From an uncultured Oscillospiraceae bacterium (lineage in GTDB: Bacteria > Bacillota > Clostridia > Oscillospirales > Ruminococcaceae): a stretch of DNA of 43,081 nt. The stretch is from the NCBI GenBank assembly GCA_949282975.1, contig CASDQY010000021.1, forward strand, positions 1-43,081, read 5' to 3'. The position numbers and the translations under genes were made by a program. This document shows, in pieces, positions 26,991 to 42,830 of the stretch (position 1 is the first letter of the stretch; each line of letters starts with the position of its first letter). The notes beneath the pieces were generated by a model. It did not search any database. It was not told the DNA's origin and saw only the letters and a program-made list of their open reading frames with translations.

Positions 26991-29141
26991 TTGTTGTCGA
27001 AAGTGATGCGCTTTTTTCAAACAGGGATCCCCAGGTTTTATCGGGTTGTTGTGGTGGCGCTTTTTTGGGTCATCCTGCTTTACTTCAGTTTTCTCAGCGC
27101 CGTCAGTACAAGTTTTGTGAACTCTTTAGAGAACACCTTCTTTTGCCAAGATAGCATTCTGCTCAATCTCTGTGCGGCGGCAGCCGTGATGCTTTTCTGC
27201 CTTTTTTTCAAGAAATGGAAGGTTTCCCGTCGTTTTCTGGATCGGCTGGAACAGGAAGAGGCGCTTTTTCGACACTGCCGGAGAGTTTTACTGCTGGTGA
27301 TTTTTCTCCTTTCTGTGGTGTGGGTGCTGTCTACCCAGTACGACGCATTGGCGGATCAAAGGAATGTCCAGCAGGCAGTGTATGATTTTCAGGCGGGAAA
27401 TTACCAGACATTCCGCCCCGGTAATTATATGGCTGCTTATCAGAATCAACTGGGACTGTTCTGGCTGTCCTATCTGTTTTCCCTGATATTCGGCAGCCAG
27501 AATTATGTGGCATTTCAGATTATGAATGCAGTAGCCGTCACCCTGTTCTATCGGGAGTTGTCGCAGCTGGGTCGTTATTTCGGCTGGCGGCGGGGAACGC
27601 AGCTTTCCATTCTGCTGATGGGCGTTTTGTTCTATCCATTGCTGATGTACTGCTCCTTTGTGTATGGAAATCTGCTGGGGCTGGCATGTTCGGTGCTGGC
27701 CATTCGGCTGGAACTGCAGTTCTTTCAGACCCATCAAAAGCGGTTTGCTTTCTTTTCGGCAGGGGCCATTTTGCTGGCGCTGCTCTGGAAATCCAATTAT
27801 CTTATCTTTCTGGTGGGCATGATTTTATATGCGCTGGTGGAGACGTTTCGGCAGAAAAAGGGAAAGCTTTTGCTGCTTCCTGTTTTGGTGGCGGCTGCTT
27901 TTTTGGTGCAGTCCTTTCTGCCGGTGGCTTTGGCCAGGCAGGCCACCGGCCAGCCTTTTGATCAACCGATGAGTTCCTGGTCTTGGATTGCTATGGGCCT
28001 GCAACGGGAAAGTCCCTTTGCTCCGGGATGGTATAACGGTTATAACGTCCATTCGTTTGGAGAAAGCAATGGCCAAACGGAAATCCAAACCCAGCTTGCA
28101 AAGCAGGACATTCAGCAATCCCTCCGTTATTTTTGGCAGAACAAAGGGGAAGCCCTTCAGTTTTTCACGCTGAAAACGGCTTCCGAATGGAACAATCCCA
28201 CCTTCCAATCCTATTGGCTGACCGAAAACCATCAGTCCAGCGCAGAGGAAAGCAATTGGCTTTGGCAGTTTACCAGCCCCTGGGGAGAATATTACGGCAC
28301 ACTGTTCTTAAATTTGTTCCAGTTTGTGATTTTGGCAGGGGCCTTGCTGTATTGTTTATTGGACTGGAAGAAATCCGGTTTTACTGCATCTTTGATTTTA
28401 GCCATGATTTTTGTGGGCGGAGCAGCCTTCCATCTGGTCTGGGAGGCAAAAGCTCAGTATACGTTAAGTTATTTTGTGCTGCTGTTTCCCTATGCTGCCG
28501 CCGGGTACAGCCGGTTTGCAGATTGCGGCCTGGTTTTGCTGGGCGGCGGTTATGGCAACGGTCATTGGAAGAACGTCGGCCGCCGCTGGCGGAAAAATCT
28601 GGTCTTTTTGGGGGCTCTGTTTGCGGTAATGGCGGTATTCATCGGAATCTGCTATTCCGGCGGGCGGGTCGCTTCCCTGCGGGCGGATACCGGGGCGTAT
28701 CTGGAGTATGTCCAGCTAAACAGCGGTTCTCCGGCATTGGCTCAAGGGGACTGGGCGCTACAGATCGTGACCGGTGCCCAATTACAGGTAGAATCAACCC
28801 AAAATGAGGATGAATTGGTGCTGTCCACAGCACCGGATTCGGAAGCCGGCCGTTTTTGGGTTTCCAATTACGGAGAAAAAACCAGATTTTACTGCAGCGG
28901 TTGGCAATCCAATCTCTGTTTTGCTGCTGAGGAAGACGAGGCAGGCCAGCCGGTTTTTTCTCTGGCGGCTTATGACCGATCCGATCAGCAGGTCTGGAGA
29001 GTGACGCCGGGCAGGGACGGCAGCGTGGTAATTGCCCAAAACGGAAACGCTTTGACTTATGATGCCCAGACGGGCCGGGTTTTTCTGGCACCGGCGGATG
29101 GAAGCGAGAACCAGCAGTGGTATCCTGTGGCGATTGAGTGA
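26991..29141 (+). CDS. GT-C-type membrane glycosyltransferase with C-terminal ricin-like region
   Basis: This 716-residue protein has about 10-12 spans through residue 575. A first extracellular loop reads YDALADQ and later GNYMAAYQNQLGLFWL, the pattern of PMT/ArnT-like (GT39/GT83-type) enzymes that use polyprenyl-phosphate sugars. The last ~110 residues, extracellular after a final span, contain DQQVWRV and NQQWYPV, the QxW repeats of ricin-B/beta-trefoil lectins. The start is a TTG at 26991 (or the next TTG): GGAG lies 6 bp upstream, whereas the first ATG at 27006 is too far away. It is probably co-transcribed with the CapA-like gene. Donor and acceptor are unknown. Confidence 0.8.
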   Translation: MLSKVMRFFQTGIPRFYRVVVVALFWVILLYFSFLSAVSTSFVNSLENTFFCQDSILLNLCAAAAVMLFCLFFKKWKVSRRFLDRLEQEEALFRHCRRVLLLVIFLLSVVWVLSTQYDALADQRNVQQAVYDFQAGNYQTFRPGNYMAAYQNQLGLFWLSYLFSLIFGSQNYVAFQIMNAVAVTLFYRELSQLGRYFGWRRGTQLSILLMGVLFYPLLMYCSFVYGNLLGLACSVLAIRLELQFFQTHQKRFAFFSAGAILLALLWKSNYLIFLVGMILYALVETFRQKKGKLLLLPVLVAAAFLVQSFLPVALARQATGQPFDQPMSSWSWIAMGLQRESPFAPGWYNGYNVHSFGESNGQTEIQTQLAKQDIQQSLRYFWQNKGEALQFFTLKTASEWNNPTFQSYWLTENHQSSAEESNWLWQFTSPWGEYYGTLFLNLFQFVILAGALLYCLLDWKKSGFTASLILAMIFVGGAAFHLVWEAKAQYTLSYFVLLFPYAAAGYSRFADCGLVLLGGGYGNGHWKNVGRRWRKNLVFLGALFAVMAVFIGICYSGGRVASLRADTGAYLEYVQLNSGSPALAQGDWALQIVTGAQLQVESTQNEDELVLSTAPDSEAGRFWVSNYGEKTRFYCSGWQSNLCFAAEEDEAGQPVFSLAAYDRSDQQVWRVTPGRDGSVVIAQNGNALTYDAQTGRVFLAPADGSENQQWYPVAIE

Positions 29142-33453: not shown

Positions 33454-35991
33454 TTATTCCGGTTGCGCCACCGTCAGATAAATCCGTTTTGCGGTGCGGT
33501 GATCCTCGGCCAGGCAGGTGATTTCCCAGCGATCCCCCGGGTTCCATTCCATGGGGCGCATCTCCTCTTCGTCCAGCAGAAAGCTTTGCAGATAGCAAAG
33601 CCCGGTGGGAAGGTGAGGGGTGATCTTAATACCGCCCGGCTGTCCGTTGGGATACAGGATATATTCTCCGTGGCCGGGGGCAAAGTCCGGGGTCAGGTAT
33701 CCGCCGCAGATCTGAATCTGTTTCGGATGGGGATCGGCGTCGTAGTATTCCGACACGGCCAACCGCCCGAAAATGCGGCAGGTTTTCCCGGGCGCCGGGG
33801 CAAATCGGAACACCGCTTCCGGTTGGGTCAGCAATTCTTCCGGCAGGGGGCAGCAGCAGGTCAGGAAGGTATCGTTCTGTTCCCCGGGAAGCAGTTGCAC
33901 GGACAAAGGCGTCCCGTTGGCCTGGATGGTCAATCCATCTGCCCCTTCCTGGGCCAGCACCAAAAACCGCAAAAAGCAGGGCTGTCCGTTCAGCTTCATG
34001 GTATAGGAGAACCAGCCGTTTTCCCCTGCTGCCCGGAAGTTTTCAAAATAATCGCTTCCGGCGTGGGTATGTTCCCCGGCCACCCGGTGGAGCAGTTCGT
34101 ATTGATCGTTGCCGATGGGCAGGCTGTCTACTTCGCAGCGGTACTGCCGCTGCTGCATCTTCCGTGCGGTCAGGTGCCGGGCCAGAGCGGGAGAGTCCGG
34201 CTCAAAGAGGTAAAAATAGATTCCGCCCCGGCAACCGTGCTGGGAATAATAGGGCACGAAGGTCAATTTGTCCTGAAGATCGGCATTTTTCAGGGTGAAA
34301 GAAAGCTTGTCCTGATTTTGAATCAAATTGCTGTGGAGGTTTTGGAACCACTCTTCCCGGTTCTCCACCAGGATGTAGTCCCGTACCGGCACCTCCCGGG
34401 TGGCCACGGTAACGTTCACCCCTACATTGGAGCACTTCATGTCCTCCTTTCCCAGGTCGGCGCTGAGCACCACCGGGCCGTAAGAAAAGGCGACCGCTTC
34501 CTTTTTGTCCGGCAGAAAATGCGCCTGAATTTGCAGCAGCAGGTTCAGCCGCACATTGTCCCGCTGCTGCACCGGCACTGCCAGCAGTCCGTTTTCGTTG
34601 GGGGTTAAGGAGAGCTTTTCCCCGTTTTTCATTACCGTCGGCGTTTGGGTGCACCAATCCGGTACCGCCAGGTACAGGGTGAATCCTTCTTTGGGAGCCT
34701 TGTGGATCCGGATCTCCACCTGCCGGTCTCTTGGCAGGTCGGCGTAGACATGAAGCTGAAAATCCGCCCCTTCTATATGGGAGCTTTGGTACCGCCAAAG
34801 CACCAGATCCCGGTTTTCCGGCCCGGTGCAATAACAGGTTCCTTCCCCCAGTTTGGTAAAGCTTTCCATGCCGGTGCCGGTGCAGCACCAGAAGCTGTCA
34901 AAGGGGGTGGAAAAGGCTTTGAAATAGCCGGTGCCCATGGGTTGAAAATAGGTGGTCATGCCGGTGTCCGGGTTTTGCGAAGCCAGGATGGCGTTGTAAT
35001 AGGTCCACTGGTAAAAATCCATATACTTCCGCTCTCCGGTGATGGAGTACAGCATCTGGGAAAGCTTGAGCATATTGTAGCTGTTGCAGGTTTCACAGTT
35101 GCAGCCGGTTCGTTCCCCGTCCAGCACATCCGCCGGGCCGAAATGTTCCCACTCGCTGTTGCCGCCGGTAACATAACTGTGATGGTGCACCACCATGTCC
35201 CAGAAGGATACGGCGGCTTGAAGATAGGGAAGGTCTTCTTCCCGTTCCCCCAGCACCAGATACCGGCGCACGGCGCCCAGCAGCTTGGGAATGGTGGTGT
35301 TGGCGTGGCGGCCGTTGAGAATGTCCTCTCCGGCGGCCAACGGCTCGAACAGCCAGGTTTCGTCAAATCGGTGGGCCGCTTGTAGATGCCGGGGATCTTT
35401 GGTGAGATCGTAGAGCTGATACATGGCGTCGTTCATGCCGCCGTACTCCACGGACAAAACCCGCTTTTGAGTTTCATCATCCCAGGCCAGCACACGGTTT
35501 GCCACCCAGTCCCCCAGCCGCCGGGCAATCCACAGGGCGTTGGACTGGTGCCCCGGTGTGCGGGCGGCACAGCAAAGGGCGTCCAAAAGCTTGTGCATGG
35601 TGTACCAAGGCACCCAGGCGGGTTTGTCCTGCTCCAAGGCGTCGAACAGGCTTTCCTCCGAAGCGAAAAGATAGCCGTCTTGCCGCTGGCACTTTAACAG
35701 TGCCTCCAAAATGCTGTCGATCCGCCCGAAGATCCAGGGCTGCCCCGTGGTCTGCTGCGCTTGACAGAGGGCGGTGAGGTAATGCCCCAGGGTATGCCCT
35801 TTGATCTGGGTTTTTTCCCAGCCGTCATAGGCAGGAGCAGGCGGCGTCAGGCCGGCTTGAAGATAAAAATAGTGTAGCAGCCGCTGAGGCTCCAGCTGAG
35901 AGAGATATTGCAGTTCTTTTTGGATCGCATTTGCGCAGTACTTGTCCCAAAGATTGACATAACCGCACAGAGGAATGGGGGTATATTTCAT
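33454..35991 (-). CDS. GH127-type beta-L-arabinofuranosidase (DUF1680)
   Basis: This 845-residue enzyme has the (alpha/alpha)6-barrel of families GH127/GH146 with a longer C-terminus than the usual 640-660 residues. The cysteine-nucleophile/zinc site is visible as E300 and C302 (CNCETCNSYNML) and C369-C370 (FWCCTGTGME). Earlier HTLGHYLTAL, WYTMHKLLDAL and GGMNDAMYQLY match the barrel. There is no signal peptide, so it is intracellular and would act on imported arabino-oligosaccharides, probably beta-linked (hydroxyproline glycans or pectin side chains). AAAGGAG precedes the ATG at 35991. It diverges from the secreted double-GH43 dockerin gene, which supports a shared arabinan pathway. The extra C-terminal part is likely a beta-sandwich; its role is unknown. 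Confidence 0.92.
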   Translation of the reverse strand: MKYTPIPLCGYVNLWDKYCANAIQKELQYLSQLEPQRLLHYFYLQAGLTPPAPAYDGWEKTQIKGHTLGHYLTALCQAQQTTGQPWIFGRIDSILEALLKCQRQDGYLFASEESLFDALEQDKPAWVPWYTMHKLLDALCCAARTPGHQSNALWIARRLGDWVANRVLAWDDETQKRVLSVEYGGMNDAMYQLYDLTKDPRHLQAAHRFDETWLFEPLAAGEDILNGRHANTTIPKLLGAVRRYLVLGEREEDLPYLQAAVSFWDMVVHHHSYVTGGNSEWEHFGPADVLDGERTGCNCETCNSYNMLKLSQMLYSITGERKYMDFYQWTYYNAILASQNPDTGMTTYFQPMGTGYFKAFSTPFDSFWCCTGTGMESFTKLGEGTCYCTGPENRDLVLWRYQSSHIEGADFQLHVYADLPRDRQVEIRIHKAPKEGFTLYLAVPDWCTQTPTVMKNGEKLSLTPNENGLLAVPVQQRDNVRLNLLLQIQAHFLPDKKEAVAFSYGPVVLSADLGKEDMKCSNVGVNVTVATREVPVRDYILVENREEWFQNLHSNLIQNQDKLSFTLKNADLQDKLTFVPYYSQHGCRGGIYFYLFEPDSPALARHLTARKMQQRQYRCEVDSLPIGNDQYELLHRVAGEHTHAGSDYFENFRAAGENGWFSYTMKLNGQPCFLRFLVLAQEGADGLTIQANGTPLSVQLLPGEQNDTFLTCCCPLPEELLTQPEAVFRFAPAPGKTCRIFGRLAVSEYYDADPHPKQIQICGGYLTPDFAPGHGEYILYPNGQPGGIKITPHLPTGLCYLQSFLLDEEEMRPMEWNPGDRWEITCLAEDHRTAKRIYLTVAQPE

Positions 35992-36275: not shown

Positions 36276-39200
36276 ATGAAAAAACGTTCCTTTTTGGCAT
36301 GGCTGTTGAGCATCGCCATGCTCTGTTCCTGCTTTTCAGCGGGGATGCTGCCGGTTTCGGCACAGGAAGTGGACGGCGTGGAATTTCCGGATTCTTTGGC
36401 TCCCGGCAATGACGCCAATATCCACGACCCCAGCATCTTTTACGACGAAGCCAGCGGCTATTATTATGTTTACAGCACCGGCATCGGCGAAACGCTTACG
36501 GTGGTCCGCACCCAGGACCCCAATATGCGAAGCTGGGAACGGTTGAACTTCGACACCTCCGGACTGATTACCGATGAGATTACTGCCGTTACCCGAGTGG
36601 ATAATATCTGGGCGCCGGATCTGGTGAAGGTGGGGGAGGAATACCGCCTTTACTACTCCTGCTCACAACCGGGGCGGGGGGATTCCTGCATCGCATTGGC
36701 CACTTCCGACCGCCCGGACGGTGGATTTACCTTTCAGGGCATTGTGGTGCGCTCCTACCAGTCCACCTGGAGCAGCACCGGCAACGCCATTGATCCCTGC
36801 ATTGTCACCGAAGAGTCCACCGGGGATCAGTACATGACCTGGGGCAGCTTCGGCGCCGGCATCTTTATCCAGAAAATGACCGAGGACGGCTTTTTGGATG
36901 AAAGCAGCCCGGCGGTGAACATTGCCCGGCGCACCGGGGCACAAACCGGTGTGGAAGGCCCCTACATCCGCTACAATGCCGACACCGGCTATTACTATCT
37001 CTTTGTCTCCTACGGAGATTTGAACAACAATTACAACGTCCGGGTAGCCCGGAGCAGATCCATCACCGGCCCCTATCTGGACGATATGGGTAATAACATG
37101 GCCACCGACAGCAACGGCACGCTGGACAGCGACATCGGCTATAAGCTCACCAGCGGGTGGCAGTATCCCGGCGGCCCCAACGATTTCGGCGCAGCCTGGA
37201 TGGGCCTGGGTCACTGCTCGGTACTGGAACAGGACGGAACCTGGATCCTGTACAACCATGCCCGGATGAACGACGGCAGCGGCAATTCCCTCGGCTATTG
37301 GATGCAGTGCCACCAGCTCCTTTGGAGCGAAGAAGGCTGGCCGCTGATGGTGGCGGCGTTTTACGATGGGGAAGAGGTGCAGCCGATCTCCCCCGGGGCC
37401 ATGGTGGGCACCTTTTTGCGGATTGATCTGAGCAAGGATGATTCCGATCTGACCCGCACCTCCACCGAAATGACCTTTGCCGCCGACGGCACCTTTACCA
37501 GCACCCACGGTTCCGGCACCTGGGACTTTACCGGGGAAAATCTGGTGTACTGCTTTTATGATTCCGGCCGGGTGGATCAGCTTCAGGTGATCCCGGGCTG
37601 GGATCAGGAAAACGGCCGGGGCTGCTATGTGATTACCGGCTATGATCAGGACACCCACCTTCAGGTTTGGGGCAAAAAGGTCAGCGACAACTACAATTCC
37701 GCCGAAGAAATCTCCTTCACCCCCGGCTGGCAGATTCAGCCTTCGGAGGAAGATCTTCTGGCCCACTACCCCTTACAGTATGATCTTTCCGATTCCACCG
37801 GCAATTATGCCGACGGCGCCATTGCCGGAACCGGCTATTCCTTTGAAACCGGAATGCTCCATCTGGACGGCGGCGCAAAATCCACCGGGAATTATGTCAC
37901 CCTTCCTGCCGGAATGCTGGATGGGCAGGACAGCATGACCATTTCTTTCTGGGCGGAAAATGAAAACGCTTCCGGCAACTATGCCGCCTTCTTTGTGGGA
38001 AGCACCGAGGCCAATCCTCTTAACTATCTGCTGCTGAACCCTGCAAATCCCAGCGGCTATGTGAAGCTGGCCTTCACCGATTCCGTTTCCACCAACAACC
38101 AGCCCTGGAACACCGAAGTGGGCTTTGCCGCCACTGCTGACCCCACCGGAAACAGCGTGGAAAGGGCGGAGGGCCTGACACTGTACACCATTGTGGTGAA
38201 CGGCAATCAACTGAGCCTTTATGTCAACGGCCTTCCCGTCGGCCGTACCGTTACCCTCAGCCGCACCATCTCGGATCTGGGAGAGAATTTAGCGGTTTAT
38301 CTGGCGGCTTCCTCCTATGGGGATGATCTTATGGCGGGCTCCTTCCGGGATCTGCGGATTTACGATACCGCCCTCGTTGCCCCTCAGGTTTCCCAGCTGT
38401 ATCTGCAGCGGGATGCCATTTTGGCCCAGCAGGCGCTGGACTGCCTGGATGTGGAGGAAAGCGACCAGCTGCGCAGCAGCCTGACCCTGCCCGGCGAAAG
38501 TTTGGGCTACCAGGTTTCCTGGAGCAGCAGCAATCCGGAAGTGATCTCCCCGCAAGGCGAAGTGTTCCGCCCGGCGGCAGGCAGCGATCCGGTAAACGTG
38601 GTTCTGACTGCCTCGGTTACGGTGGGCGAGCAAACCGCAACCAGGGACTTCACCTTTACCGTACTTCCCCAAGAGGAGGACATCAATGTGGATGCACAGT
38701 ATTATCTGACTCTGGTGGATCTGCCGGAGTATCTCTATACCGATCTGACCCTGCCAAGCACCACCGGCAATCAGGATTCCATCACCTGGTCCAGCAGCAA
38801 TGAGGCCGTTGTTGGCAGCGATGGCACCTTGCATACCGATTCGACTCAGCCCCAGACCGTCACCCTTACCGCAACCCTCACCTACGGAAGCGGCACGGCA
38901 ACCAAAGAGTTTACGCTCATCGCCGTGGGTGGGTATCCCTATGCGGTGGCAGGCTATCTGACCGGCGCCACTGATCTGGACGGCAGCCTGCACCTGGCCG
39001 CAGTCAATACCGATGGCGAAGTGACCCAGCTCAATTCCGGCAACGGCGTATTGTACGCCGATCTCAGCGGTGTGGCTGCAAACAACAACGCCTATAAAGC
39101 GGGGGATACCGGGCTGTACTTCACCTCCGTGGCTCTGGCCCGGCAGCCGGAAAGCGGTTTTGTGGCCGCCGTGTCCCGCTCCATGGAAGAAGATTCGGTT

Positions 39201-40880
39201 TGGTTTTATACCAGCAATGATCTGGTGCAGTACGACGGCGGCACCCCCCTCACCCTGAAAGCGGGCACGGCGGTGAAGCAAATTCATTCTGTGTCTTATT
39301 CTGTGGAGCAAAACGGCTATGCGGTCAGCTGGACCGACAGTGCGGGCGACACCTATACTACATTAGTTGACGCTGATTTCAGCCGGGTGATGGGTGAAAC
39401 TCCGGCGCAGCCTGTGGAAATTTACACTTCCTATACCCTGCCGGATGCCGCCTTGGCAGATACCGCAGGCGTATTGTACCTTACGGAAACAGAGTATACC
39501 GGGCTGGTCAACCGCCTGAGCAATCCCACCAACAACGGCATGGAGGAGATTCCGGAAATCCACACCCCTGTGGGCGGCTCGGTGCAGATGCCGGATACCG
39601 TTACCGCCACCTATACCGACGGTTCCACCGCTGAGTTTGGGGTGGAATGGAATTTGGAGAACGTAGACTTCACCCAGCCCGGCCGGTATACCGTTACCGG
39701 CACGGTGCAGCAGACCCAGTATGAAAATCCCTTTATCCTCTACCGGGCCGATCCCTATATTGTTCAGGCGGAAGACGGCAGTTATTATTTTACCGCCTCC
39801 TATGCCGATGAAAACTATTCCAGTTATGACCGGGTGACCCTGCGCCACGCCGACACCATTGAAGGCCTGGCTTCCGCCGAGGATGTAACCCTTTGGACCG
39901 GTCAGCTTCTCTGGGCGCCGGAAATCCATTATATCAATGGTCAGTGGGTGATGTACTACGCTGAAAACATCCGTGCCTGCGCCCGCATCTGCCGGGAAGG
40001 GGGAGACCCCATGAATCCCGACGACTGGGGGGCAGAGATCCCCTTTGCCACCATTCCCAATTACTACACCACCTCCAGCCTGGATATGACCTATTTCGAA
40101 GCAAACGGCGTGGGTTACGTTATATGGGCTCAGATGGGGGCGGGCAACGCCATCCAGCGCTCCACCCTGTACATGGCGCAGCTGGACCCCAACGATCCCT
40201 CCCAAATCACCGGAAACACCATTGTCCTCACCACCCCCCAGTATGCCTGGGAAATGGTGAATTATATGGTCAACGAAGGTCCCAGCGTGCTGCAAAGGGA
40301 CGGGAAGATTTATGTTTCCTTCTCCGCTTCCGGTACCGGCACCGAATACAGCATGGGTCTGCTGACGGCCGATGCCGATTCGGATCTGATGGACCCGGCC
40401 AGTTGGAGCAAAACCGGTTATCCGGTGCTCACCAGCCAGAATGTGCCCGGCGAATACGGCCCCGGCCACAACAGCTTTACCTACGATGAACAAGGCAACG
40501 CCATCTTTGTCTACCATGCCCGCAGTGAGGACACCAATTCCGGCAATACCCTGGCGGATTCCGGACGGCATGCCCGCATTAAGCGGGTTCACTGGGCGGC
40601 GGACGGCACCCCCATCCTCAGTATGAGTTATGAGGAAGAGCTGGCGGCGGAATATGCTACCGTCACCGCCACCATTGTGGTGGAAGATCCCTCTTCTTTG
40701 GAGATGGATTTCAATCAGGACGGCGAAGTGAATGTGTTGGATGTGATGAAGCTGGCACAGGCGGTGGTAGGTTCCGTTACCCTGCCCGATGGAGTCAACG
40801 GCAACCTGAATGGGGACGAAAGGCTGGACGTGCTGGATGTGATGGAGCTGGCTCAGTGGATTGTCAATTCTCAAGATTGA
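36276..40880 (+). CDS. Secreted multidomain double-GH43 arabinan hydrolase with dockerin
   Basis: This 1534-residue exported enzyme has a signal peptide (1-30, cut near VSAQ). GH43 module 1 (about 48-385) looks like an endo-1,5-arabinanase, with D51 (HDPS), D173 (AIDP) and E228 (VEGP) as the base, pKa modulator and acid. Then a beta module (about 385-490), a LamG/concanavalin-like module (about 495-705), two bacterial Ig-like repeats (WSSSNPEV near 749, WSSSNEAV near 838), a further beta module (about 885-1060), an Ig-like module (about 1095-1145), GH43 module 2 (about 1150-1455; D1159, D1270, E1334) and a two-repeat type I-like dockerin (1478-1530). It would cut arabinan outside the cell and attach to a cohesin. 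AAGGTGA precedes the ATG. Confidence 0.93.
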   Translation: MKKRSFLAWLLSIAMLCSCFSAGMLPVSAQEVDGVEFPDSLAPGNDANIHDPSIFYDEASGYYYVYSTGIGETLTVVRTQDPNMRSWERLNFDTSGLITDEITAVTRVDNIWAPDLVKVGEEYRLYYSCSQPGRGDSCIALATSDRPDGGFTFQGIVVRSYQSTWSSTGNAIDPCIVTEESTGDQYMTWGSFGAGIFIQKMTEDGFLDESSPAVNIARRTGAQTGVEGPYIRYNADTGYYYLFVSYGDLNNNYNVRVARSRSITGPYLDDMGNNMATDSNGTLDSDIGYKLTSGWQYPGGPNDFGAAWMGLGHCSVLEQDGTWILYNHARMNDGSGNSLGYWMQCHQLLWSEEGWPLMVAAFYDGEEVQPISPGAMVGTFLRIDLSKDDSDLTRTSTEMTFAADGTFTSTHGSGTWDFTGENLVYCFYDSGRVDQLQVIPGWDQENGRGCYVITGYDQDTHLQVWGKKVSDNYNSAEEISFTPGWQIQPSEEDLLAHYPLQYDLSDSTGNYADGAIAGTGYSFETGMLHLDGGAKSTGNYVTLPAGMLDGQDSMTISFWAENENASGNYAAFFVGSTEANPLNYLLLNPANPSGYVKLAFTDSVSTNNQPWNTEVGFAATADPTGNSVERAEGLTLYTIVVNGNQLSLYVNGLPVGRTVTLSRTISDLGENLAVYLAASSYGDDLMAGSFRDLRIYDTALVAPQVSQLYLQRDAILAQQALDCLDVEESDQLRSSLTLPGESLGYQVSWSSSNPEVISPQGEVFRPAAGSDPVNVVLTASVTVGEQTATRDFTFTVLPQEEDINVDAQYYLTLVDLPEYLYTDLTLPSTTGNQDSITWSSSNEAVVGSDGTLHTDSTQPQTVTLTATLTYGSGTATKEFTLIAVGGYPYAVAGYLTGATDLDGSLHLAAVNTDGEVTQLNSGNGVLYADLSGVAANNNAYKAGDTGLYFTSVALARQPESGFVAAVSRSMEEDSVWFYTSNDLVQYDGGTPLTLKAGTAVKQIHSVSYSVEQNGYAVSWTDSAGDTYTTLVDADFSRVMGETPAQPVEIYTSYTLPDAALADTAGVLYLTETEYTGLVNRLSNPTNNGMEEIPEIHTPVGGSVQMPDTVTATYTDGSTAEFGVEWNLENVDFTQPGRYTVTGTVQQTQYENPFILYRADPYIVQAEDGSYYFTASYADENYSSYDRVTLRHADTIEGLASAEDVTLWTGQLLWAPEIHYINGQWVMYYAENIRACARICREGGDPMNPDDWGAEIPFATIPNYYTTSSLDMTYFEANGVGYVIWAQMGAGNAIQRSTLYMAQLDPNDPSQITGNTIVLTTPQYAWEMVNYMVNEGPSVLQRDGKIYVSFSASGTGTEYSMGLLTADADSDLMDPASWSKTGYPVLTSQNVPGEYGPGHNSFTYDEQGNAIFVYHARSEDTNSGNTLADSGRHARIKRVHWAADGTPILSMSYEEELAAEYATVTATIVVEDPSSLEMDFNQDGEVNVLDVMKLAQAVVGSVTLPDGVNGNLNGDERLDVLDVMELAQWIVNSQD

Positions 40881-40961: not shown

Positions 40962-40990
40962 TTTACTTTTTGGCAGGGCTGTGTTATGAT
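40962..40990 (+). promoter_or_regulatory. Sigma-A promoter of the dockerin pseudo-transglutaminase gene
   Basis: TTTACT (40962-40967) and TATGAT (40985-40990) with a 17-bp spacer, 35 bp before the ATG. Confidence 0.65.
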
Positions 40991-41025: not shown

Positions 41026-42402
41026 ATGGAAATGCAACGTCAAATTTGGAAACGGGCGGGAGCCGGACTGACGGCGGCTTTGGTTCTCGCCGCCGGCATT
41101 TTGCTTGGGAATGGGCAGGTGAACGCCCAAACCACCCCGCAGCAGGCTTTGCAGGAGCTTCAGTTGGAGGATGCCGCCGCCATACTTACGGACGGCCCGG
41201 ACAGTTACAGCAAACAGGGGAACAAGGCCCTGGTGCTTCATGACCGGCTGCTGGACGTCGTATATCCCGCCCAGACCGGCAGTACGGCGTATGACGCTTT
41301 GGTAAGCGGCGGGGCGGACAGCACTGGCTACGCCCAGGCAATGGCTCTGCTTTTGGAAGAAGTGGGCCTGGAAAACAGCCTGGTGACCGACCCTGCCACC
41401 GGAGAAAGCTGGAACCGGGTGAGAATCGACGGAAGCTGGTACAATCTCTCGGTTTACCGGGACGACCTTTCCGGCCGTCGCACCGCTTTTCTCAAAAGCG
41501 ATTCCGCCTTTGCCGACCTGCTGGACAGCGATCCCGCTTCCTGGGAGGGGGAAAATCCCTGCACCAGCACCTATTACGACAACTGGTTTTTAAATCAGAG
41601 CCGGGACGGCGGGGATGTCTGGAAAAACGATCTCTATTACACCAACGGCAGCGGAACCCTTTATGCCGGTTACCTTATGGGCACTGCTACCCATTCCGGC
41701 CTGTACCGGGAAGAAACCGGCCTGGACTTTGTGGATGCCTGTGCCGCTTTTGATGGCGCCCTTTACCTGATCGGGAGCTTGAACGGCCGGCAGGGACTCT
41801 ACCTTTACGAGGGATCTTCCAGCGTTGAAATCGGCCTGGACGGCACTTTGGTGCATCGGGGAAGTGTTACCCCGGTGGAGCAGGACATTGGCACGGATCC
41901 AATTGTTTCCATGTACAGCAATTCCACCGGCCTGGTGCTGGTGACCCAGGACGGCAGTGAAAAGGAAATCACCCTTCACACCCATACCCTTGGGGATTGG
42001 CAAACGGTGCAGAAGATGGACTGCTCCGGGGTGATTCCCGGCAAAGAGGTGCGCATCTGCACCGATTGCGGAGAAGTGGTGGAGATTCAATACCAAAGCC
42101 CGGAGCACGCCTATTCCGACTGGACTGTGGCTCAGAACCCGTCTTTGGAGCAGGAAGGCAGGCTGGAACAGGTTTGCGTCAACTGTGGGGATCGGGTAAC
42201 GAAACCCCTGCTTTACGGCGATGTGAATCTGGACGGCGGCGTCTCGGTGCTGGACGTGATGAGGCTGGCGCAATCCGTGGTGGGAAGCATCCAGCTCCCC
42301 CAGGGCCTTGACGGCAACTATGACCGGAGCGAGGATGGGGCCATCGGGGTTTTGGATGTCATGGCGTTGGCACAGTATATCGTGTCCGGCCAAAGAGTTT
42401 GA
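41026..42402 (+). CDS. Secreted dockerin protein with inactive transglutaminase-like domain
   Basis: This 458-residue exported protein has a signal peptide (1-34, cut near VNAQ). Residues about 60-150 align with secreted transglutaminase-like domains (AYDALVSG-x-ADSTGYAQA, then ESWNRVRIDGSWYNLSVYRDD), but the expected triad is replaced: Cys by S99, His by E127 and Asp by S142, so it cannot be a cysteine peptidase or transglutaminase. Residues about 205-310 form a beta-rich region of unknown type. Two cysteine pairs, CTDCG (345-349) and CVNCG (384-388), sit in His/Trp-containing repeats seen in surface proteins. A dockerin closes the protein (397-455). AAAGGA precedes the ATG. It probably binds carbohydrate or protein in a cohesin-built complex; function unknown. 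Confidence 0.85.
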   Translation: MEMQRQIWKRAGAGLTAALVLAAGILLGNGQVNAQTTPQQALQELQLEDAAAILTDGPDSYSKQGNKALVLHDRLLDVVYPAQTGSTAYDALVSGGADSTGYAQAMALLLEEVGLENSLVTDPATGESWNRVRIDGSWYNLSVYRDDLSGRRTAFLKSDSAFADLLDSDPASWEGENPCTSTYYDNWFLNQSRDGGDVWKNDLYYTNGSGTLYAGYLMGTATHSGLYREETGLDFVDACAAFDGALYLIGSLNGRQGLYLYEGSSSVEIGLDGTLVHRGSVTPVEQDIGTDPIVSMYSNSTGLVLVTQDGSEKEITLHTHTLGDWQTVQKMDCSGVIPGKEVRICTDCGEVVEIQYQSPEHAYSDWTVAQNPSLEQEGRLEQVCVNCGDRVTKPLLYGDVNLDGGVSVLDVMRLAQSVVGSIQLPQGLDGNYDRSEDGAIGVLDVMALAQYIVSGQRV

Positions 42403-42593: not shown

Positions 42594-42830
42594 ATGCATA
42601 GCTATCAAGTGCTTTTTAAGGATACGAAGGATGTCAGTGATTTTGTCAACATCGCCATGGAATACCCCATGGATATGGATATTGTGTTGCAGCGCCAGAT
42701 TGTAGACGGCAAATCTTTCCTGGGAATTGCCAGCCTGCTGAGTCGGTACCGCAGTGAGCCTCTGTGCCTCACCTGCACGGAAAAGAATCCGGACTTTGAA
42801 CGCCGGATCACCCGGTTTCTGGCCGCTTAA
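42594..42830 (+). CDS. HPr-like protein lacking the phospho-histidine
   Basis: This 78-residue protein has the size and pattern of HPr: residues 30-60 (VLQRQIVDGKSFLGIASLLS) match the GKS-x-LGI-x-SL segment, with S41 at the place of the regulatory Ser46. The active-site loop that should read GxHARP is instead DTKDVSDF, so it cannot carry phosphate from EI to PTS enzymes. Such HPr-fold paralogs resemble Crh, which keeps only the serine and works in catabolite control. The ATG at 42594 has AAGGAG upstream, while an earlier start at 42558 lies in the hairpin. A terminator follows at about 42867. Function as a regulator is inferred. Confidence 0.75.
   Translation: MHSYQVLFKDTKDVSDFVNIAMEYPMDMDIVLQRQIVDGKSFLGIASLLSRYRSEPLCLTCTEKNPDFERRITRFLAA

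Follow-up and report, generated by a model that had tools for sequence, protein, structure and literature searches.

In R. flavefaciens FD-1, 10 dockerin-linked transglutaminase (TG) modules have been counted among the putative peptidases, and four TG-like ORFs of this strain lie in a head-to-tail cluster (ORF01263-ORF01267 in Table 1 of PMC2930009). TG folds that have lost their catalytic activity and act as binding, scaffold or regulatory domains are known as well, with menin, XPC/Rad4, EPB42 and Cyk3 as examples (PMC10318531, PMC4758748). Dockerin-linked TGs and inactive TG folds have thus each been described already; the novelty of the protein reported here is their combination, and no paper that we found in the open-licence literature describes a catalytically dead TG as part of a cohesin-dockerin system.

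The window (the whole analyzed stretch of DNA, 43,081 nucleotides) comes from a gut-type Ruminococcaceae bacterium and encodes a 458-aa dockerin protein with a TG fold, referred to below as the pseudo-TG. Similar to the FD-1 proteins, as far as these are covered by the parts of PMC2930009 drawn on here, it has a signal peptide (putative in our case), a TG-like domain and a C-terminal dockerin, and in the genus mate UBA1375 the gene of its ortholog stands in tandem with another TG gene. The same parts of that source do not describe a loss of catalytic residues in the FD-1 TGs, whereas all three are replaced in the window protein. The pseudo-TG resembles menin, XPC/Rad4, EPB42 and Cyk3 in keeping the TG fold after the loss of catalytic residues. 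However, those proteins are eukaryotic and intracellular, belong to other lineages and work outside cohesin-dockerin systems; moreover, the loss described for human menin and Cyk3 is that of the Cys only, while the window protein lacks the whole triad.

Features of the pseudo-TG gene and its neighbors, in window coordinates
Feature	Position	Strand	Evidence
Whole gene, dockerin pseudo-transglutaminase, predicted secreted (P0001)	41026..42402	+	ORF, translation, ortholog L025:7995-9386
Putative signal peptide, residues 1-35	41026..41130	+	Inspection: WKR n-region, hydrophobic core, cleavage-like NAQ
Predicted transglutaminase-fold core, residues 67-160	41224..41505	+	Family profile, pLDDT, Z to 9crn
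Ser99 (AGC), catalytic Cys position	41320..41322	+	C in 79/79 relatives, S in both orthologs
Glu127 (GAA), catalytic His position	41404..41406	+	H in 79/79 relatives, E in both orthologs
Ser142 (TCG), catalytic Asp position	41449..41451	+	D in 79/79 relatives, S in both orthologs
Tyr144-Arg145 in place of family T-W beside Asp	41455..41460	+	T in 73/79, W in 67/79 relatives
Middle beta-rich domain, residues 190-322	41593..41991	+	Strand pattern, moderate pLDDT
Linker with two CxxC motifs, zinc-ribbon-like	41992..42210	+	Sub-threshold Zn-ribbon Pfam matches
Type I dockerin, residues 397-452	42214..42381	+	PF00404, 29.2 bits against cut-off 22.9
Promoter-like site TTTACT-17-TATGAT, extended -10	40962..40990	+	Consensus scan match, upstream of pseudo-TG gene
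Double GH43 protein, LamG and Big domains, dockerin	36276..40880	+	Pfam; also upstream in UBA1375
GH127 beta-L-arabinofuranosidase	33454..35991	-	Pfam; also in UBA1375

The putative signal peptide, recognized by eye only, has a KR n-region and an AXA-like end near residue 34. By inspection, the dockerin carries the duplicated calcium-loop/helix motif, with two loops, the second of which has Gly at position 9. The CxxC linker has a similar stretch in another dockerin protein of the same genome, and Pfam finds no CBM in the protein, which may still carry a binding domain of an uncatalogued type. The promoter-like site is kept in sequence and place in UBA1375 (L025:7927-7955); therefore, as judged from sequence, the gene is probably transcribed separately from the arabinanase and not driven from the GH43 gene alone. 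The double GH43 protein itself measures 1534 aa, and its two GH43 domains may differ in target. Elsewhere in the window, a 716-aa ORF (26991-29141) that follows a PGA_cap gene gives a weak ricin-B-lectin match (E 4e-5, under the cut-off).

TG domains were extracted from relatives in 397 genomes of the same family, and a profile of 28 distinct intact domains was built with the window protein left out. This profile recognizes both the window protein (E 7e-22) and its ortholog (E 1.5e-17). The Pfam model Transglut_core (PF01841) stays below its cut-off on the pseudo-TG (residues 83-141, E 0.037, 14.7 versus 23 bits), which is expected because the signature residues are gone, and in NCBIfam a transglutaminase-related lipoprotein family is matched in part (E 4e-8), far under its cut-off. 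The structure prediction and fold search proposed in the first-pass annotation gave a confident TG core that superposes on solved TG-fold enzymes: an AlphaFold2 model made from an 81-row alignment has a pLDDT of 91-98 across most of the core, and its best solved match by Foldseek and VIA-align is S. pyogenes TglA (9crn; Z 18.3, 1.9 Å, 144 residues), followed by the TGase 4xz7 (Z 12.0). Menin, human transglutaminase 3, PNGase and arylamine N-acetyltransferases are found lower down, where matches near Z 8 could reflect just a common arrangement. The profile of the 81-row alignment also picks 9crn by sequence (E 4e-33), a single-sequence search of the PDB with the window protein returned no match, and a search of a viral fold library returned nothing meaningful. 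As far as profile and model predict it, the TG/papain-like fold is kept in the pseudo-TG.

Unlike the window protein, TglA has Cys/His/Asp in the aligned motifs. The corresponding residues of the pseudo-TG are S99, E127 and S142, in the motifs ADSTGYA, GESWNRV and YNLSVYRDD; the three residues, the ORF and its coordinates are as the first-pass annotation had read them. Cys, His and Asp (C/H/D) each occupy their triad column in 79 of 79 aligned relatives. Among 87 distinct TG domains, two show Ser/Glu/Ser (S/E/S), namely the window protein and its ortholog, two are cut by contig ends, and the 83 other complete ones are C/H/D. In the alignment, 15 columns are conserved at 90% or more, and the window protein departs from four of them, namely the triad and a Thr column located two positions beyond the Asp. 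The hypergeometric p for this is 0.009 (post hoc), and the loss is therefore specific to the catalytic site and not part of a general decay. The family-invariant residues H72, D73, Y89, G101, Y102, W129, N130, G136, Y139 and D147 are all retained, and Y144-R145 is common to both orthologs. The earlier claim of a complete triad loss with the fold preserved therefore agrees with both the alignment (79/79) and the model (core pLDDT 91-98).

A cysteine nucleophile moved to another place in the core was considered and is ruled out by the cysteine inventory. Residues 1-178, including the whole TG core, contain no cysteine, and the nucleophile has thus not been relocated within the core. The nearest one is C179, where 17 of 79 intact relatives also have Cys; being common in active proteins, it is no substitute nucleophile. 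The occurrence of another Cys in the active site, which had been named earlier as evidence against triad loss, does not apply here. With the whole triad replaced and no other cysteine in the core, the window protein, judged by its sequence, is incapable of cysteine chemistry.

Ser-Glu catalysis exists in sedolisins, and one could picture the pseudo-TG as a converted enzyme, a TG-fold serine hydrolase or amidase on a dockerin with Ser99 as the nucleophile and Glu127 as the base. We know of no TG-fold serine/glutamate hydrolase, and an S99/E127 hydrolase, if true, would be a new catalytic type in the TG superfamily. A serine does replace Cys at the start of the helix and a glutamate replaces His, both kept in the ortholog, and active-site changes are frequent in papain-like folds (PMC10318531), but the site has lost both His and Asp, with no replacement evident in the alignment, and the T-W beside Asp is replaced too. 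We regard such a conversion as very improbable.

The sole ortholog found (L025:7995-9386, in UBA1375) has the same S/E/S residues and is 71% identical over a 301-aa query comprising the TG and middle regions, or 66% over the full alignment. The genus is represented by three genomes in our set, and no further S/E/S ortholog was present among overlapping sets of 397 genomes of the family, 394 of the order and 395 nearest genomes, nor in viral contigs or plasmids; the plasmids gave one distant TG match. A scan of GTDB contigs with two peptide patterns returned UBA1375 alone, and the two best further matches (L122 and L123) are intact C/H/D proteins. The family alignment suggested by the first-pass annotation thus finds S/E/S kept in the sole ortholog; as just two orthologs are known, "fixed" here describes two sequences, both from incomplete metagenome assemblies (84.7% complete in the case of the window genome). 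An assembly error behind S/E/S was also considered, and is ruled out by the presence of the same residues in a second genome and by the dN/dS values given below.

Conservation extends to the locus. In UBA1375 the order is GH127 (opposite strand), the double GH43-dockerin gene, the S/E/S gene, an intact C/H/D dockerin-TG of 536 aa (L025:9421-11031) that starts 34 bp downstream of the S/E/S gene in the same direction, and a small ORF. The window has the same order, but the intact TG is absent and a small 78-aa ORF directly follows the S/E/S gene. Homologs of the same clade that keep the active triad, which had been named as a point against the first reading, therefore do exist as paralogs, while the direct ortholog is S/E/S. 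In a further genome, G002, one contig begins with the intact TG and a different one truncates the GH43 gene, which places the S/E/S stretch in a contig gap. The small ORF (window 42594-42830) is nearly identical in UBA1375 (L025:11245-11478) and has no Pfam match. In three other genomes (G177, G090 and G168; loci L060, L061 and L062), tandem arrays of several TG genes, all C/H/D, resemble the R. flavefaciens cluster.

The intact paralog (L025:9421-11031; L026:386-2050) shares with the pseudo-TG the order TG core, middle domain, CxxC linker and dockerin, but it keeps C/H/D and an N-terminal domain that the window protein lacks, and the two are 37-38% identical. The N-terminal domain of TglA resembles that of the paralog, whose model matches 9crn over 228 residues (Z 22.9). 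The paralog is alignable with window protein residues 54-450 (E 1e-37), and in the loci retrieved no other protein apart from the ortholog matches the middle domain; this suggests a tandem duplication after which the N-terminal domain was lost. A probable ancestor of the pseudo-TG gene, consistent with the data, is a duplicate of an active dockerin-TG gene that lost the N-terminal domain and the triad. In a tree of TG cores the S/E/S pair sits on a long branch and not beside the tandem paralog; a common clade of the four genes (the S/E/S pair and the intact TGs) is not rejected (p-AU 0.159).

The position of the intact gene also bears on a regulatory interpretation, in which the pseudo-TG serves as a regulator or decoy that tunes the activity of the intact paralog, either through binding it or through shielding its substrate, in the manner of enzyme/pseudoenzyme pairs. 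The two genes of UBA1375 lie 34 bp apart, in the same direction and with a common architecture, and there is a precedent in fungal Cyk3, whose TG-like domain lacks the catalytic Cys and stimulates a partner enzyme (PMC4758748). However, the window genome has the dead copy and no intact paralog, either at the locus or elsewhere in its 84.7% complete assembly, and this role seems to us possible but unlikely. The paralog may have been lost from the window locus or never present there.

The long branch and the loss of the N-terminal domain and the triad could also mark a decaying duplicate on its way to becoming a pseudogene. Selection speaks strongly against this. Between the window and UBA1375, the whole gene has a dN/dS (Nei-Gojobori) of 0.19, with 0.14 in the TG core and 0.20 in the middle domain, compared with 0.14 for GH43 and 0.13 for GH127 in the same genome pair and 0.14 for the intact TG core between UBA1375 and G002; dS is about 1.3, near saturation, which makes the exact ratio soft. 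The TG cores differ at 44 of 68 synonymous and 38 of 214 non-synonymous sites (Fisher p 1e-12). None of the 26 changes in 94 positions falls on the five cleft residues, which alone is not significant (about 0.2). The frame is open in both genomes (dN/dS 0.14-0.19), and S/E/S, the upstream promoter-like site and the dockerin are all conserved. Since the ortholog pair is under purifying selection, neutral decay is not tenable on these sequence comparisons, and we give the pseudogene explanation scarcely any credence. Selection on the triad-less protein had been proposed from the sequence of the window alone, and it is now visible at a strength like that on the neighboring glycosidases.

The middle domain is probably made of propeller-like blades, as the model suggests. 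In the intact paralog, the equivalent region resembles propeller fragments of three blades (Z about 10.5), Pizza3 among them, and may be a half-propeller; the two middle domains give a weak BLAST match to each other (E 8e-4). It is conceivable that this domain does the binding and the TG core is a mere structural spacer, given that the middle domain is 70% identical between the orthologs and has the propeller-like equivalent just described. Yet the TG core is constrained at least as strongly as the middle domain (0.14 versus 0.20), and a spacer role leaves the clustering of changes at the catalytic site unexplained; we find it distinctly unlikely.

The dockerin noted on the protein in the first-pass annotation scores over the Pfam cut-off, and candidate partners for it are encoded in the same genome, which has six cohesin (PF00963) matches over the cut-off and 12 dockerin matches, of which 11 exceed theirs. 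The arabinanase neighbor was likewise correctly named, as GH43-dockerin and GH127 genes adjoin the pseudo-TG gene. A likely scaffoldin is a 1338-aa ORF (L115:1466-5479, G000:C86) with three cohesins and Big_2 repeats. A motif of the VLDVM-LAQ type is common to the dockerins of the genome, among those listed; the S/E/S protein and the GH43 protein may therefore share cohesin partners. A 2503-aa open frame (L119:6321-11000, G000:C61) combines a cohesin, a dockerin and a Peptidase_M26_N region, and may encode an adaptor scaffoldin fused to a peptidase-like region. At L116:2275-6752 (G000:C12), an LRR-dockerin protein with the CxxC linker type of the window protein is encoded beside a cohesin protein.

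The triad has been replaced and kept replaced under selection while the fold remained intact; therefore, the pseudo-TG is probably a binding or regulatory part of a cohesin-dockerin surface complex and not an enzyme. Our preferred interpretation, to which we assign a probability of roughly 60%, is that of a pseudo-transglutaminase without catalytic function that is docked and binds through its former cleft. The protein would be secreted, and its C-terminal dockerin would plug into a cell-surface cohesin. With the TG/papain-like fold retained, by model and profile, and cysteine chemistry lost, the old cleft, relined by S99, E127, S142, Y144 and R145, would most likely bind a peptide or a glycopeptide that it neither cleaves nor cross-links. 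The bound ligand could then be kept near co-docked enzymes, such as the neighboring GH43 protein. A possible link to the plant cell wall or to host glycans comes solely from the gene neighborhood. Both GH127 and GH43 enzymes target arabinofuranosides, and some members of GH127 are active on those of plant hydroxyproline-rich glycoproteins; a plant wall glycopeptide is therefore a reasonable candidate ligand.

The pseudo-TG is well supported as a pseudoenzyme and has a narrow distribution. Non-CAZyme dockerin proteins (TG-like, LRR, serpin and others) make up much of the ruminococcal cohesin systems and have no established role. Dead and active dockerin-tagged copies side by side constitute a natural control pair for binding by the TG-like module, and this pair could show whether it acts on plant-wall glycoproteins, peptidoglycan or host proteins.
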